DNA of 64,000 nucleotides from Thermococcus onnurineus NA1. GTDB taxonomy: Archaea; Methanobacteriota_B; Thermococci; Thermococcales; Thermococcaceae. Shown piece by piece: positions 17,421 through 38,044 of the stretch; within the stretch, counting starts at the first letter, position 1; every line of letters begins with the position of its first letter. The translations under genes were made by a program, and so were the position numbers. The notes beneath the pieces were generated by a model. The model was given only the letters and a program-made list of their open reading frames with translations. It ran no database searches and had not been told where the DNA came from. The stretch spans positions 1,116,001 to 1,180,000 of the forward strand of contig NC_011529.1 in the NCBI RefSeq assembly GCF_000018365.1. Direction: 5' to 3'.

Positions 17421-18669
17421 TTTTCAACCCCTCGGGGAGAGCCTTCCCCCCATTACCCCTCACCCGGAAGGCTCTCAAACCCTCAAGGCTCGGGGTTATC
17501 GTTTTTACCTTCTTCAAAATATTAAATGCCCCAACCAAGTCGGCATTAAACACAAGCCCCGTTGTGGGACACGAATAAAGACCACGAACAAATCTCGCCC
17601 CTTTATGAGGCTTCCCGCAAACGGGGCAGGTTTTAGAAGTGAAAGCCTCATCAACGACCTCAACAAGGATACCATACTCTTCGGCAACTTCCTTAAGACG
17701 TTTGATAACATAATTAAACCGCCAGACGTGAGAGAGGAGAAAATTTTGCTTCCTTCTCTTCTCAGAGTTTCTTGCTATTCCCTTTGGGTAACCAACGACG
17801 ATTTTAGAAACACCCAAATCGTAAAGCCTCCTAACTGTTTGTCTTACCACCGTGTTAATGTAGTGCTTCGCCTGAAGTTTGGCCTTTTCATGCATTCTTT
17901 TGAGTTTCCTGCTCTTTTTAGCCCCGCTTTTGCTGAGTTTCGACTGATAATCCGCAATCCTCCTCTGCCAGTAGAAGGCTATTGATTTTAGTGGTTTTCC
18001 ATTCACCAAGAAGCTTTCCCCGTTCTCGACATAAACGGCCATTAAGTTGTTCACTCCTAAGTCAATCCCTGCTGTGAGTCTTCCTTTTGGTGTTCTTGGA
18101 ACGCTGATCCATTCGTTTTTGATTAGCTTTTTCTCAACGGTGAAGCTGACATGAGCATACCATTTTTGCTTAGCATTATCATAGATGATTTCTAATCTTC
18201 CCTGCTTGCCCCTCAAGTGTATTCTCCCCTTAAACTGTATTTCGAGGCGTTTGAATTTGCCGAGACCCATTAAAATAAGCTTATTTCCTTCAATGCGGTA
18301 TTGAGTGTTTCTCAGAACGATGAAGAGCTTTCTCTTCCCGTTTTCTTTGAGGTAGTTTGGTGGTTTTGGTTTTAACCAAGTGGGGAGTTCTCCGTTCCTC
18401 TTCTTCCTGAGGAGGGAGAAGAAGCCCCGCCAAGCTTCAGCGTTTTTCCTCGCTATTGTTTGGACGGTTGCAGAACCGATTTCTTTCTTGAACTCTTCGT
18501 AAACGATTTTCTGAGTTTTCAAAAAGTCTATTGGTTTTCCTTGGAAGTATTCCTGCCGTCTAAGGTAGTTTACTCTATTCCATGCTCTGGAACTTAGGTC
18601 AGCCAACTGAAAGAGAGCCTTTTCTTGCTCTTTTGAGGGCTGGAGTTTGAGTGTCAATGTTCTCTTCAT
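17359..18669 (-). CDS. tnpB: TnpB RNA-guided nuclease of IS605-type element
   Basis: A 436-residue TnpB with the helix-turn-helix-like N-terminus, the RuvC-I motif GIDLGVNN (D203) and the RuvC-III motif NADLVGAFNI (D377). At the usual RuvC-II Glu position it has KIVVGYPKG, with Gly at 293. A Glu is present at 341 in VDEAFTSKTC, just before the zinc finger, where most family members have another residue. The zinc finger is also degenerate: C348, C351 and C367 are present, but the fourth position is Thr (CPTTG). TnpB cuts DNA next to a target motif using an omega RNA. The gene is intact in length. Confidence 0.92.
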   Translation of the reverse strand: MKRTLTLKLQPSKEQEKALFQLADLSSRAWNRVNYLRRQEYFQGKPIDFLKTQKIVYEEFKKEIGSATVQTIARKNAEAWRGFFSLLRKKRNGELPTWLKPKPPNYLKENGKRKLFIVLRNTQYRIEGNKLILMGLGKFKRLEIQFKGRIHLRGKQGRLEIIYDNAKQKWYAHVSFTVEKKLIKNEWISVPRTPKGRLTAGIDLGVNNLMAVYVENGESFLVNGKPLKSIAFYWQRRIADYQSKLSKSGAKKSRKLKRMHEKAKLQAKHYINTVVRQTVRRLYDLGVSKIVVGYPKGIARNSEKRRKQNFLLSHVWRFNYVIKRLKEVAEEYGILVEVVDEAFTSKTCPVCGKPHKGARFVRGLYSCPTTGLVFNADLVGAFNILKKVKTITPSLEGLRAFRVRGNGGKALPEGLKTHFLVGLNEAPQTSLSLARG

Positions 18670-31561: not shown

Positions 31562-32013
31562 TCCTCCCGCTCCACCGGAGGAAGTTTGATTAAAGAGTTA
31601 ACTTCTCACTAAACTGGCTGGCACGCTTTCACGTCTTATCAAACTCGCGAGTTTAACACAGGTTTAACTCAAAAGTCAGCGAATGAAGAGCCTGCGAAGT
31701 TAGTATGTGAAGAAAAATGCACGAACCCCATCAAATTCCTCCAGCAAAGCGGACTTCACCTTAAATCCGCTGGAATGAGTTTGCATGTCTTTTTCAAAAA
31801 CAGCAAATTCCAGGGGTTTAACTTGAAAACCTCTGAATTGAAATGTTTCACTTTCCTCTTAACGCCCGAAGGGCGTTATTCCTGCAGTGAAACGATATAA
31901 AACTGGCAAAATGCGAAGTAAACCACTCAAAACTACCAGTTTGAGAAGACATGCGAGCCTTGATCAAACTCAACGGGACGATAGTCCCGTGCGTTGAAGC
32001 TTCGCTTCAACGT
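31562..32013. other. hairpin-rich non-coding spacer next to tRNA genes
   Basis: The 520-base gap 31521-32041 has no convincing ORF but many strong inverted repeats: 31562-31568/31578-31584 (TTCCTCC), the palindrome AAACTCGCGAGTTT (31642-31655), 31741-31746/31770-31775 with an inner GGA/TCC, 31807-31820/31827-31840 (13 pairs, one bulge and one G-U), 31846-31853/31887-31894 enclosing TAACGCCC/GGGCGTTA (31861-31868/31872-31879), 31927-31935/31939-31946, 31974-31980/31985-31991 (ACGGGAC) and 31993-32001/32005-32013 (CGTTGAAGC). GATATAAAA at 31895-31903 could be a plus-strand promoter. Whether this is one RNA, several, or an insertion relic cannot be told. Confidence 0.6.
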
Positions 32014-34027: not shown

Positions 34028-34345
34028 GGCGGCGGGCGCGCCCGGGGGTGGGAACCCTCCACCGTCCGCTTCCATCGGGGCTCGCTCACCCCCGCTACCC
34101 CACGAGCGCCGAACGTCCCGCCTACCGCTGCTCCCTTCCGGGCCTGGCGGGGTTCGGCGGGCAAAGGGCGTTAGTCCGGCCCTCCAGCCAGACCCCGCCC
34201 ACCGTCGGCCCCGTGGGACGAGGGATCATCGTTGTGCCCCGACTTCCGCAGGCGGCTTTGGGAACCGCCCCCCGGGCTTCGGCCCCGGCATATCGGCGGT
34301 TTCCGGTTACAGGGGACGCCGAACCCCCCGGCCTAGCCCGCCGCC
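34028..34345 (-). ncRNA. 7S RNA of the signal recognition particle
   Basis: The G/C-rich minus-strand stretch begins GGCGGCGGGC and ends in the complementary GCCCGCCGCC, forming the closing helix. The SRP54-binding helix 8 is visible as GCCAGGCCCGGAAGGGAGCA followed by GCGGTAGGC. The size of about 318 bases is normal for archaeal SRP RNA. The promoter TTTATATAT at 34367-34375 places the start at about 34345. The ORF that covers this region on the other strand is an artefact of its composition. Confidence 0.95.
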
Positions 34346-34467: not shown

Positions 34468-35904
34468 ATGCGCCTAACTGAACACCCTGTTCTGCGTTTT
34501 GAACGCGGAAGAGAAGTTATCATATACTTTGAAGGACAGCCAATCAAGGCCTACGAGGACGAAACCATCGCCGCTGCACTTCACGCTAATGGAATCAGAG
34601 TCCTGAACTACTCGGCCAACGAAAAGCGTCCAAGAGGCCTCTTCTGTGCCATTGGAAAGTGCTCCTCCTGTTTGATGGTCGTTAACGGAATCCCCAACGT
34701 CAGGACGTGCATAACCCTCGTCGAGGACGGCATGACCATAGAGCGCCAGAGAGGAAAGGCCGAGCTCCCGAAGGACGTCAAGCCGCCGGAGTGGAAGGAT
34801 GCCAAGGTCGTGAAGGCAGACATCGTCATCATTGGAGGTGGGCCCGCCGGACTGATGGCGGCAATCCATGCGGCCGACGCAGGAGCAAAGATCGTTCTTC
34901 TCGACGAGAATCCGATGCTCGGCGGTCAGCTCGTCAAGCAGACCCACAAGTTCTTTGGCAAACGCGAGCAGTTCGCTGGAGTGAGGGGCGTCGAGATAGC
35001 TAGGATTCTGGAGGATGAGGTCAGAAAAAGGGAGAACGTCGAGGTCTTCCTCGAAACTTCGGCGGTGGGAATATTCCAAGATGGAGATGAGAAGCTCGTT
35101 CTGGCCGTCAAAAACAACCGCGAGCTGATAGAGTTCCGTGGAAGGGCTGTCATCGTCGCCACCGGTGCGATGGAGAAGATGATTCCCTTCGAGAACAACG
35201 ATCTGCCCGGAATCTACGGTGCTGGAGCCATTCAGACCCTCATGAACACCTACGGGGTGAAGCCGGGCGACAAGGTTCTAATCGTTGGTGCGGGCAACGT
35301 GGGACTTATTCTGGCGTATCAACTCATTCAGGCCGGAGTTGAAGTCAAGGCTATAGTCGAGGCGATGCCGAAGGTGGGAGGCTACTTCGTTCACGCGGCC
35401 AAGGTTAGACGCTTGGGCGTTCCGATACTGACCAGGCACACTATTCTTCGCGCTGAAGGAAGGGAGAGGGTCGAAAAAGCAATTGTTGCTCAGCTCGACG
35501 AGAACTGGAACGTTATTCCCGGAACGGAGAAGGTCTTCGAGGTCGATGTGATAGCCCTCGCGGTTGGCCTGAGGCCGAGCATAGAGCTCCTCCACCAGGT
35601 AGGCTGCCAGATAAAGTACATCCGGGAGCTCAGCGGCCATGTGGCAGTTCGCGACGAGTGGATGGAGACAACCGTGAGAGGCATCTTCGTGGCCGGCGAT
35701 TCTGCCGGAATAGAGGAGGCTACCACTGCGATGCTGGAGGGCAAGATAGCAGGAATAGCCGCTGCCCTGAGGCTCGGCATAGCCGACGAGAGCTGGGTCA
35801 AAGAGATAGAGAAGGCACAGAGAGACTTGGACGAGTTCCGCTCCGGACCCTTCGGCAGGCATGTTATGGAAGGTGTTAAGAAAGCTCTGGTGGTGAGAGA
35901 ATGA
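34468..35904 (+). CDS. pdhA: dye-linked L-proline dehydrogenase, alpha subunit
   Basis: A 478-residue flavoprotein. An N-terminal 2Fe-2S-like domain has the full Cys set (GLFCAIGKCSSCLMVV and VRTC); it is followed by an FAD domain (VIIGGGPAGLMAAIHAADAG) and a NAD-binding-type Rossmann region (VLIVGAGNVGLILAYQL). This matches the alpha subunit of the alpha-beta-gamma-delta complex PDH1 (P. horikoshii PH1363, from memory), which oxidises proline and may pass electrons via NADH dehydrogenase activity. It begins the pdhA-F-(insert)-X-B operon. Its stop and the next start overlap (AATGAG). Confidence 0.85.
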   Translation: MRLTEHPVLRFERGREVIIYFEGQPIKAYEDETIAAALHANGIRVLNYSANEKRPRGLFCAIGKCSSCLMVVNGIPNVRTCITLVEDGMTIERQRGKAELPKDVKPPEWKDAKVVKADIVIIGGGPAGLMAAIHAADAGAKIVLLDENPMLGGQLVKQTHKFFGKREQFAGVRGVEIARILEDEVRKRENVEVFLETSAVGIFQDGDEKLVLAVKNNRELIEFRGRAVIVATGAMEKMIPFENNDLPGIYGAGAIQTLMNTYGVKPGDKVLIVGAGNVGLILAYQLIQAGVEVKAIVEAMPKVGGYFVHAAKVRRLGVPILTRHTILRAEGRERVEKAIVAQLDENWNVIPGTEKVFEVDVIALAVGLRPSIELLHQVGCQIKYIRELSGHVAVRDEWMETTVRGIFVAGDSAGIEEATTAMLEGKIAGIAAALRLGIADESWVKEIEKAQRDLDEFRSGPFGRHVMEGVKKALVVRE

Positions 35905-36407
35905 GCGAGATTCCTGAGTACCTGAGAACCGGCTACATAACGCCCGAGGAGCTTCAGAAGTTCATCCCGCTTCCGAGCGAGGAGAGGCTGAGGAAAAGGC
36001 CAGTAGCAATTCCAGAGTGTCCGCAGGAGATACCCTGCGCCCCCTGCAGGGAGATATGTCCTACTGGAGCCATAAGCATGCCCACGCCGAACGATTTGCC
36101 CATCGTTGACTATGACAAGTGCATAGGCTGCTCTCTCTGTGTCCAGATATGCCCCGGCCTAGCATTCTTCATGATGCACTACGTTGGAGACAAGGCGAGG
36201 ATAACGATGCCTCACGAGCTTCTGCCAGTTCCGGAGAGGGGCGAGGAGGTCGTTCTCCTTAACCGCGTCGGGGAGCCTGTTGGCAAGGGGAAAGTCCTCA
36301 CGGTAGTCCCGAGGGAGAGAAGCAAGGGGGACACGCCGATAATCACTGTGGAGGTTCCAATAGAACTCGCCTGGGAGGTCAGAGCGGTTAAGGTGGTGAG
36401 AGAATGA
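35901..36407 (+). CDS. pdhF: ferredoxin-like subunit of proline dehydrogenase
   Basis: A 168-residue protein with two 4Fe-4S-type Cys groups: CPQEIPCAPCREICPTGA and CIGCSLCVQICPG. It follows pdhA with an overlapping ATG and matches the small ferredoxin-like subunit of the Thermococcales PDH1 complex. It shuttles electrons between the flavin subunits. The ORF ends with a VVRE stretch whose DNA carries the ribosome site for the next frame. Confidence 0.8.
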   Translation: MSEIPEYLRTGYITPEELQKFIPLPSEERLRKRPVAIPECPQEIPCAPCREICPTGAISMPTPNDLPIVDYDKCIGCSLCVQICPGLAFFMMHYVGDKARITMPHELLPVPERGEEVVLLNRVGEPVGKGKVLTVVPRERSKGDTPIITVEVPIELAWEVRAVKVVRE

Positions 36408-36616
36408 CGGCCACCGAGATTGTATCTGATGGGTGCCAAAAGATGGGACACCTCTGTAAGGTTCACAGTCATCTCGCGCCCGAAGGGCGCATTTCAGGGG
36501 TGAACAACAGAATGGCATCAATTGCGCGGGCACCCAATATCGTTGAAGCTAGTTTGGGAGTCAGAAACATTCCGCCAGCGCTTTCATCAGAAAGAGCTGT
36601 GGTGGTGAAAGAATGA
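36404..36616 (+). other. extra 70-codon frame / structured insert inside the pdh operon
   Basis: Between pdhF and pdhX lies a frame coding for 70 residues that overlaps both neighbours by ATGA. The product has no recognised domain (it holds a possible metal-binding-like CQKMGHLCKVHSH). The same DNA folds well: TGGGTGCC (36430-36437) pairs with GGCACCCA (36529-36536), and inside it GTTCAC (36461-36466) pairs with GTGAAC (36500-36505) around an inner GCGCCC-GAA-GGGCGC (36476-36490). The described pdhAFXB operons have nothing here, as far as I recall. Coding is possible but RNA structure or an insertion relic is equally likely. Confidence 0.45.
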
Positions 36617-36885
36617 GCGGGAAGAAAATCATCTGCCGCTGCAACGACGTCACGGTTGAAGGCGTCGAGAGGCTCATCGACTCGGGCATCACGGACATCG
36701 AGGAAATCAAGCGGCTTCTCAGGATAGGCATGGGGCCCTGCCAGGGAAGGACGTGCATCCCGATTGTAATCTCAATCCTCGCGAGGAAGACGGGAAAGAG
36801 ACAGGAGGATATACCGCTCCCGAAGTCGAGGGTTCCGATAATGCCCGTCCGCGTCGAGGTTCTGGTGGGTGGTGCCGATGAGTAA
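36613..36885 (+). CDS. pdhX: BFD-like 2Fe-2S subunit of proline dehydrogenase
   Basis: A 90-residue protein with the pattern IICRCNDVTVEGVERLIDSG, then RIGMGPCQGRTC, the BFD-like [2Fe-2S] fold (C-x-C ... C-x4-C). It matches PdhX of the PDH1 complex. The C-terminal tail KSRVPIMPVRVEVLVGG is long for a bare BFD domain. Overlaps pdhB by eight bases. Confidence 0.8.
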   Translation: MSGKKIICRCNDVTVEGVERLIDSGITDIEEIKRLLRIGMGPCQGRTCIPIVISILARKTGKRQEDIPLPKSRVPIMPVRVEVLVGGADE

Positions 36886-38044
36886 GATAGCGATCATCGG
36901 CGGCGGAATAATAGGCGTCGCGACGGCCTATGAGCTGGCAAAGCTCGGAGAAGAGGTAATCCTCTTCGAGAAGAACTACTTCGGCTCAGGTTCGACCTTC
37001 CGCTGTGCAACGGGAATACGGGCGCAGTTCACGGACGAGGCCAACATCAGGCTCATGAAGTACGCCATCGAGCGCTGGGAGAGACTTGAAGAGGAGCTCG
37101 GGGCCGAGATAGGCTTCCGGCACTCCGGTTACCTCTTCCTGGCGACGAGTGAGGAGGAGGTTGAAGCCTTTAAAAACAACATAAAGCTCCAGAACAGCTT
37201 TGGCGTTCCCACGAGGCTCATAGATATGGATGAGGCAAAGGAAATAGTCCCGCCACTCAACACGGAACCGTTCTTGGCCGGGGCCTGGAACCCGATGGAC
37301 GGAAAGGCCAACCCCTTCAAGACGCTCTTTGCATATCTCACGAAAGCCAAGGAGATGGGCGTTGACGCGAGGGAGCACACCGAAGTTGTGGCTCTGGAGC
37401 GCGAGGGGGACAAGATAATCGCGGTGAAGTTCAGAAGCAACGGAAAGGTGGAGAGCGTTAAGGTTGACGCCCTTCTCAACGCGGCCAACGCATGGGCACC
37501 GCTGATTAACGAGATGGCAGGCCTGAGCAGGGAACTCGTTCCAATAACCGCGTACAAGCACCAGCTCGTGAAGACGGAGCCCCTCAAGCCGGGTCAGGTC
37601 GAACCCCTCGTCTGTCCGCCAAGCTGGAACGACAGCTACCTCATCCAGGACGGCGAGGACGGTGGAATAATCTGTGGCTCGGGAATAGAGCACAAAGCCA
37701 AAAGCCTCGACGACTACGAGCCGACCTACGACTTTCTGAGGGGTGTGCTGAAATACGCCGTTCAGATAATTCCCGCCATCAGACACGCCCATATCGTCCG
37801 CCAGTGGGCCGGCTTCTACGCTAAAACGCCTGACAAGAACCCTGCCATAGGAAGGCTCCTCGACAACTTCTACATTGCGGCAGGCTTCAGCGGCCACGGC
37901 TTCATGATGGCTCCAGCGGTTGCCCAAGCGATGGCGGAGTTCATGACCAAAGGAAAAAGCAAAGTGCCCCTCGACTGGGAGTGGTACGACCCGTACAGAT
38001 TCGAGCGCGGCGAACTGAGGAGCTCGGCCTTTCAGATAGGCTAA
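36878..38044 (+). CDS. pdhB: dye-linked L-proline dehydrogenase, beta (catalytic) subunit
   Basis: About 388 residues, FAD-dependent, of the DAO/glycine oxidase fold. IAIIGGGIIGVATAYELAKL binds FAD and the C-terminal IAAGFSGHGFMMAPA closes the site. It is the proline-oxidising subunit of PDH1 (compare P. horikoshii PH1364). I chose the ATG at 36878, after GGTGGTGCCG. A second complex with a related beta subunit is encoded at 49050-51701. Followed by a 160-base spacer with an AAATTTAAATAG promoter at about 38115. Confidence 0.85.
   Translation: MSKIAIIGGGIIGVATAYELAKLGEEVILFEKNYFGSGSTFRCATGIRAQFTDEANIRLMKYAIERWERLEEELGAEIGFRHSGYLFLATSEEEVEAFKNNIKLQNSFGVPTRLIDMDEAKEIVPPLNTEPFLAGAWNPMDGKANPFKTLFAYLTKAKEMGVDAREHTEVVALEREGDKIIAVKFRSNGKVESVKVDALLNAANAWAPLINEMAGLSRELVPITAYKHQLVKTEPLKPGQVEPLVCPPSWNDSYLIQDGEDGGIICGSGIEHKAKSLDDYEPTYDFLRGVLKYAVQIIPAIRHAHIVRQWAGFYAKTPDKNPAIGRLLDNFYIAAGFSGHGFMMAPAVAQAMAEFMTKGKSKVPLDWEWYDPYRFERGELRSSAFQIG

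Follow-up and report, generated by a model that had tools for sequence, protein, structure and literature searches.

A structured insert in the pdh operon of Thermococcus onnurineus NA1 is probably one copy of a mobile element family that preserves translational coupling

Introduction

MIRUs are mobile mycobacterial repeats that insert at start codons and carry an open reading frame (ORF) coupled at -4 nt (PMC12548453, citing Supply et al. 1997). Rickettsia palindromic elements are inserted in-frame inside protein-coding genes, and prokaryotic MITEs, including the archaeal ones of Sulfolobus, are short, multicopy and presumed to be moved in trans (available excerpt of PMC10969869). No Thermococcus MITE family is named in that excerpt. 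Thermococcus genomes have been described as repeat-poor, and T. gammatolerans as being without the transposase genes of other archaea (PMC2718504).

The insert analyzed here separates pdhF from pdhX in T. onnurineus NA1 (genome of 1,847,607 bp, one contig) and lies in a window, the whole stretch of DNA analyzed, of 64,000 nt. It is most probably one copy of a non-autonomous mobile Thermococcus family that carries a coupling-preserving frame and works in a MIRU-like manner. Despite the described repeat poverty, almost every Thermococcus genome contains members of this structured repeat family.

Like MIRUs, the element is inserted at start codons or at the stop-start overlaps of coupled genes, as seen in 36/36 occupied alleles at two junctions (pdhF/pdhX and hydrogenase 30kDa/49kDa). 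The internal ORF with -4 nt coupling is likewise common to both: the element frame starts in the upstream ATGA in 36/36 occupied alleles and ends with the exact -4 overlap with the next start in 24/36. This likeness is one of described architecture, the covariance model having been run on Thermococcaceae only; judged in this way, the element appears to work as mycobacterial MIRUs do. It differs from them in its archaeal host family, in its covarying P1[P2[P3]]+P4 fold of ~140-200 nt, in its long site-specific flanking repeats, and in having noncoding siblings at tRNA 3′ ends.

With the Rickettsia elements, as presented in the excerpt of PMC10969869, the family has in common that small palindromic mobile elements are kept in open reading frames. 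Those elements sit inside genes, whereas Thermococcus copies lie between stop and start codons and have their own stop/start overlaps. Similarly to MITEs, the element is short, multicopy and presumed to be moved in trans. No terminal inverted repeat was recognized at its ends; it has helices P1-P4, none of which pairs both insertion ends, and its fold consists of nested helices and a 3′ hairpin. It has no target site duplication of constant length (about 15-19 bp at some sites, 33+ bp at others), and no parent transposon was seen in a transposase survey that covered Y1.

Anatomy of the Insert

Features of the locus are listed below in window coordinates.

34468-38044, pdhA-, pdhF-, pdhX- and pdhB-type genes (Pfam)
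35901..36407, + strand, pdhF (4Fe-4S protein), upstream neighbor (Pfam Fer4)
36392..36407, + strand, left copy of the flanking direct repeat, GGTGGTGAGAGAATGA, which is the pdhF end with an SD-like stretch and ATGA
36404..36616, + strand, 70-codon ORF with ATGA overlaps with the pdhF stop and the pdhX start
36408..36612, + strand, inserted element of 205 nt, from pdhF stop to pdhX start (comparison with the empty allele)
36430..36437, + strand, P1 5′ arm, TGGGTGCC (fold; P1 comparison across lineages)
36461..36466, + strand, P2 5′ arm, GTTCAC (covariation)
36476..36490, + strand, P3 hairpin, GCGCCC-GAA-GGGCGC (covariation)
36500..36505, + strand, P2 3′ arm, GTGAAC (covariation)
36529..36536, + strand, P1 3′ arm, GGCACCCA (fold; P1 comparison across lineages)
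36570-36575, + strand, conserved TTCCGC, directly 5′ of P4
36576..36599, + strand, P4 hairpin, CAGC-G-CTTTC-ATCA-GAAAG-A-GCTG (covariation; genome pattern scan)
36601..36616, + strand, right copy of the direct repeat, GGTGGTGAAAGAATGA, an SD-like stretch and the pdhX start
36613..36885, + strand, pdhX (BFD-like [2Fe-2S]/sarcosine oxidase A3 domain), downstream neighbor (PF17806, PF04324)

A sequence-only reading of this DNA had described a 205-nt piece separating pdhF from pdhX, an 8-bp outer stem (36430-36437/36529-36536) with GTTCAC/GTGAAC and GCGCCC-GAA-GGGCGC, and a 70-codon frame overlapping both neighbors by ATGA. All of these are present, and the pdhA-F-X-B gene content that it gave is right by Pfam family. 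To these the present analysis adds P4, the flanking direct repeat of 16 bp, and relatives elsewhere in the same genome. P4 is the best conserved portion of the element family and typically has an internal mismatch, mostly G.G across the family and G.A in the pdhF/pdhX insert.

An archaeal SRP RNA gene (Rfam RF01857) is located close upstream of the pdh operon, at window positions 34030-34343 on the - strand.

Conserved Fold

Folding of the insert is not at chance level. Compared with dinucleotide shuffles, the segment 36425-36541 has z = -3.4 (0/200 shuffles) and the whole ORF, 36404-36616, has z = -2.2 (3/200). The architecture common to the family is P1[P2[P3]] + P4, in which P1 encloses P2, P2 encloses P3, and the terminal hairpin P4 follows.

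In 30 distinct cores from nine sites, 93.9% of P2+P3 cells are paired, against 23-47% in slid controls, and 24 double changes are found vs. 6.3 in shuffles; the double changes weigh more than the percentage, because the cores were located via a pairing search and the sample is biased towards structure. P2 exists as GTTCAC/GTGAAC, GTTCGC/GCGAAC, GTTTAC/GTAAAC, and GCTCGC/GCGAGC. For P4 (29 distinct types), 98.5% of cells are paired (slid controls 35-55%), with 27 double changes vs. 9 in shuffles. Thus covariation strongly supports P2, P3, and P4, and a chance fold is rejected by the shuffle z-scores together with the P2-P3 and P4 covariation.

Support for P1 is moderate, weaker than for P2-P4. 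By duplex energy, own and foreign arms could not be told apart (-21.0 vs. -20.0 kcal/mol), a result probably due to the ease with which arms of this length form chance pairs. In a contiguous-helix test, run after the energy-based test had failed to separate the arms, a helix of at least 6 bp is formed by 70% of own arm pairs vs. 32% of cross-lineage pairs, and the own-arm mean was reached in 0/300 permutations. Copies with a short leader have the SD-like stretch as the pairing partner in P1 (e.g., GGAGGT/ACCTCC in L287, GGGGGG/CCCCCC in L191).

The P4 loop of some copies (L012, L013, L090, L186, L188) can carry an extra piece of ~45 nt with two hairpins, e.g., GGGAGC-AAA-GCTCCC and TGTTGAGGC..GCCTCAACA. 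This piece retains the reading frame and forms a nested structured insert.

A Dispersed Family in Thermococcaceae

Each copy of the element is ~140-200 nt long. BLASTN with the pdhF/pdhX insert gave matches in 56/61 Thermococcus genomes, and a search for the P4 pattern was positive in 65/94 Thermococcaceae genomes vs. 0 for a reversed-pattern control. A covariance model built from 22 elements was run on the 94 Thermococcaceae genomes alone, its E-values being rough owing to short calibration. It has matches in 75/94 of these genomes, including 59/61 of Thermococcus, where usually 5-27 places per genome are found; in genus g3 it has none (0/9 genomes). Both coding and noncoding copies are matched full-length.

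In the T. onnurineus NA1 genome, partial relatives of the pdhF/pdhX insert were found, several of them directly adjoining tRNA genes. The model finds 15 places there at E ≤ 0.05, the weakest of which span P2-P3 only, as judged by eye. A weak model match (E about 1e-3) in the window, at 31846-31915 on the + strand, is intergenic and near tRNA-Gly and tRNA-Phe. It reads TTTCAC..AACGCCC-GAA-GGGCGTT..GTGAAAC.

The pdhF/pdhX insert has no match in Pfam or NCBIfam. Nor was it assigned to a known RNA family of Rfam 15, in which no match reached the gathering score (best mir-2229, 22.8 bits vs. a cut-off of 65). No element match came from the plasmid and phage collections, and one IMG/VR contig contains the P4 pattern. 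In the open-access papers searched, which leave out most of the subscription literature, no earlier account of such a Thermococcus repeat was found.

Occupied and Empty Junctions

The pdhF/pdhX junction, compared at 50 Thermococcus loci, is occupied at 18 (including the remnants L211, L235, and L241), empty at 31, and atypical at 1. The nearest empty allele, L199 (G026), whose pdhF is 97.6% identical, reads AAGGTGGTGAGAGAATGAGCGGGAAGAAA and has one copy of the 16-bp flanking repeat; relative to it, the net insertion is 209 nt (36408-36616). The hydrogenase 30kDa/49kDa junction is occupied at 18 loci and empty at 39. Related elements are found at about eight other gene junctions, among them Oxidored_q6/30kDa, 49kDa/NADHdh, and pdhA/pdhF, and also upstream of ttuA and of archease (identified from its sequence, without a family search). 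The sites are concentrated in a few redox operons.

The direct repeats differ by site. They are TGGGGGTGATCGAATGA in L098 and of the GGAGGTGCAAAGAAATGA type in one hydrogenase family, and reach 33+ bp in the other (L248/L251/L253); over all sites the length ranges upwards from about 15-19 bp. Because SD + ATGA is a common junction motif, short repeats alone are weak evidence, and it is the long and site-specific repeats on which the argument for insertion rests. Not every site shows a clean target duplication. At the pdhF/pdhX alleles L203, L215, L217, and L230 the left and right flanks are of different native junction types, which indicates that recombination has acted besides insertion.

In the element tree, the clade of the window (L198, L200, L219) and the other pdhF/pdhX elements form separate lineages, one hydrogenase junction holds about four lineages, and different junctions have lineages in common. 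Distinct element lineages have therefore inserted recurrently at one junction.

The Open Reading Frame

The frame that starts in the upstream ATGA is open to within -8..+20 nt of the next start in 36/36 occupied alleles at the two junctions, and is still open in the deletion derivatives L211, L235, L241, and L294. After shuffling, an element has an open frame with a chance of about 0.12, but 36/36 is not a product of independent trials, since the alleles share ancestry. In a wider set of 43 elements, which was partly selected by frame, as the 36 occupied alleles were not, the two remaining sense frames are open in 0 and 1.

Neither of the outcomes that the sequence-only reading had named as refuting it was observed: the fold exceeds chance, and no clear sign of purifying selection on the 70-residue protein was found. 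The pN/pS of the element frame is 0.71; the two other frames give 0.85 and 0.79, and pdhX gives 0.11. The element values are pooled over related pairs that overlap, so they are descriptive. The slightly lower value of the true frame leaves room for weak peptide constraint. In the pdhF/pdhX groups, pS is 0.14-0.25 for the element vs. 0.53-0.61 for pdhX. Together, the open frames and pN/pS appear to say that openness is conserved and the peptide, at most, weakly.

Interpretation and Alternative Explanations

The suggestion made from the sequence alone, of a structured and mobile insert that keeps translation of the neighbors coupled, has proved largely right, with coupling itself deduced from the open frame. 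Mobility is supported by the dispersed family, the occupied and empty alleles, the duplicated junction, and the recurrent insertion by different lineages. Structure is supported by the covarying helices, and coupling by the frame open from ATGA to the next start in all 36 alleles.

In operons, the element is placed directly after an overlapping stop/start ATGA and flanked by a duplicate of the junction, with a stop-free frame spanning the first ATGA to the second. A ribosome finishing the upstream gene may restart on the element frame at the first ATGA and open the helices as it passes through them; termination at the second ATGA would then allow it to initiate again on the downstream gene. 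With restarts at both ATGAs, operon expression would survive the insertion. The frame is presumably kept open by selection for coupling, or against (transcription) polarity, the fold may be what the mobilizing machinery recognizes, and the element probably moves in trans. A parasite-like DNA element could in this way live inside compact archaeal operons by passing the ribosome on, a coupling trick apparently independent of that in mycobacteria, where MIRUs were already known. Because the natural, replicated insertions can be paired with empty alleles, and genetic tools exist for the genus, archaeal translational coupling and the cost of an inserted RNA structure can be tested directly.

The element could instead be a host-domesticated intercistronic regulatory RNA, the fold of which tunes the expression of pdhX and hydrogenase subunits and the copies of which persist for their benefit. 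Strongly conserved helices, the low pS of the element relative to pdhX, and the pairing of P1 with the SD-like stretch in L287 and L191 agree with this, and the concentration of sites in redox operons could hint at a host function. We consider it unlikely, given that the element is absent at 31/50 pdhF/pdhX loci, the nearest relative included, that a single junction carries different lineages, that the majority of sampled copies are at tRNA 3′ ends, and that the truncated copies L235 and L241 have lost helices yet retain the frame. A plain small-protein gene that some species have gained or lost would also fit the ATGA-overlapping open frame, present at each occupied junction surveyed, and the protein profile of this frame, which retrieves family members. 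However, the residues that are conserved are encoded by base-paired nucleotides and are exchanged in step with the covarying pairs (VH..VN vs. VR..AN), noncoding relatives exist, and the peptide has no significant PHROG match in addition to the lack of Pfam and NCBIfam matches. Such a gene is scarcely credible: it is largely refuted and was rejected on pN/pS, which is near the wrong-frame values and far above pdhX, and on the reading of P4 in two frames, as FPPALAQARAV or FRERFAEQRAL.

A further candidate is an IS200/IS605-type derivative moved by a Y1 transposase that recognizes the P4 hairpin. As a terminal hairpin whose internal mismatch is conserved, P4 resembles REP and IS200/IS605 ends, and this is taken as a lead only; flanking direct repeats are not expected for IS200/IS605. 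Y1_Tnp is found in 15/61 Thermococcus genomes and not in that of T. onnurineus NA1, whereas the family is in 59/61, and its lack in most carrier genomes and in the element's own genome makes Y1/IS200 mobilization very unlikely.

A TnpB-like/Cas12f1-like_TNB (PF07282) match is present in the window at about 17518-17718 (- strand), within a 443-aa open frame, in this genome without a Y1 transposase match.

Relatives at tRNA Ends

In a sample of one P4 match per genome (n = 30), 19 copies have the CCA end of a tRNA gene 2-5 nt away (15 identified via ARAGORN, and 4 intron-bearing or truncated tRNAs by eye), and 5 precede an SD and start codon. The tRNA-adjacent copies match the covariance model full-length, and stop codons are found within the weaker profile matches among them. 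A search of 900 bp on the other side of these copies showed no duplicate of the tRNA end. TGGTG, GGGTG, or AGGTG follows directly after P4 at both tRNA-end and junction sites, as noted by eye and without statistics.

Tentatively, and with considerable doubt, the family may represent a new archaeal mobile class with a mover other than a known IS transposase, in which the insertion machinery would recognize a CACC-type motif. This motif would be common to tRNA 3′-CCA ends and the Shine-Dalgarno complement, so that noncoding copies would land at tRNA 3′ ends and coding-compatible copies at stop/start junctions.

Some P4 copies (L117, L153, L182) adjoin apparent truncated tRNA 3′ halves, Val-like or His-like, which may record earlier integration events. 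Upstream of the tRNA-adjacent copies L003, L112, L113, and L116 there are long AT-rich intergenic blocks. These carry repeated modules (AAACTTTGATCAAAC, CAGTCGTGCACT, and GTTTAAC..GTAAAC), suggesting a larger composite repeat.
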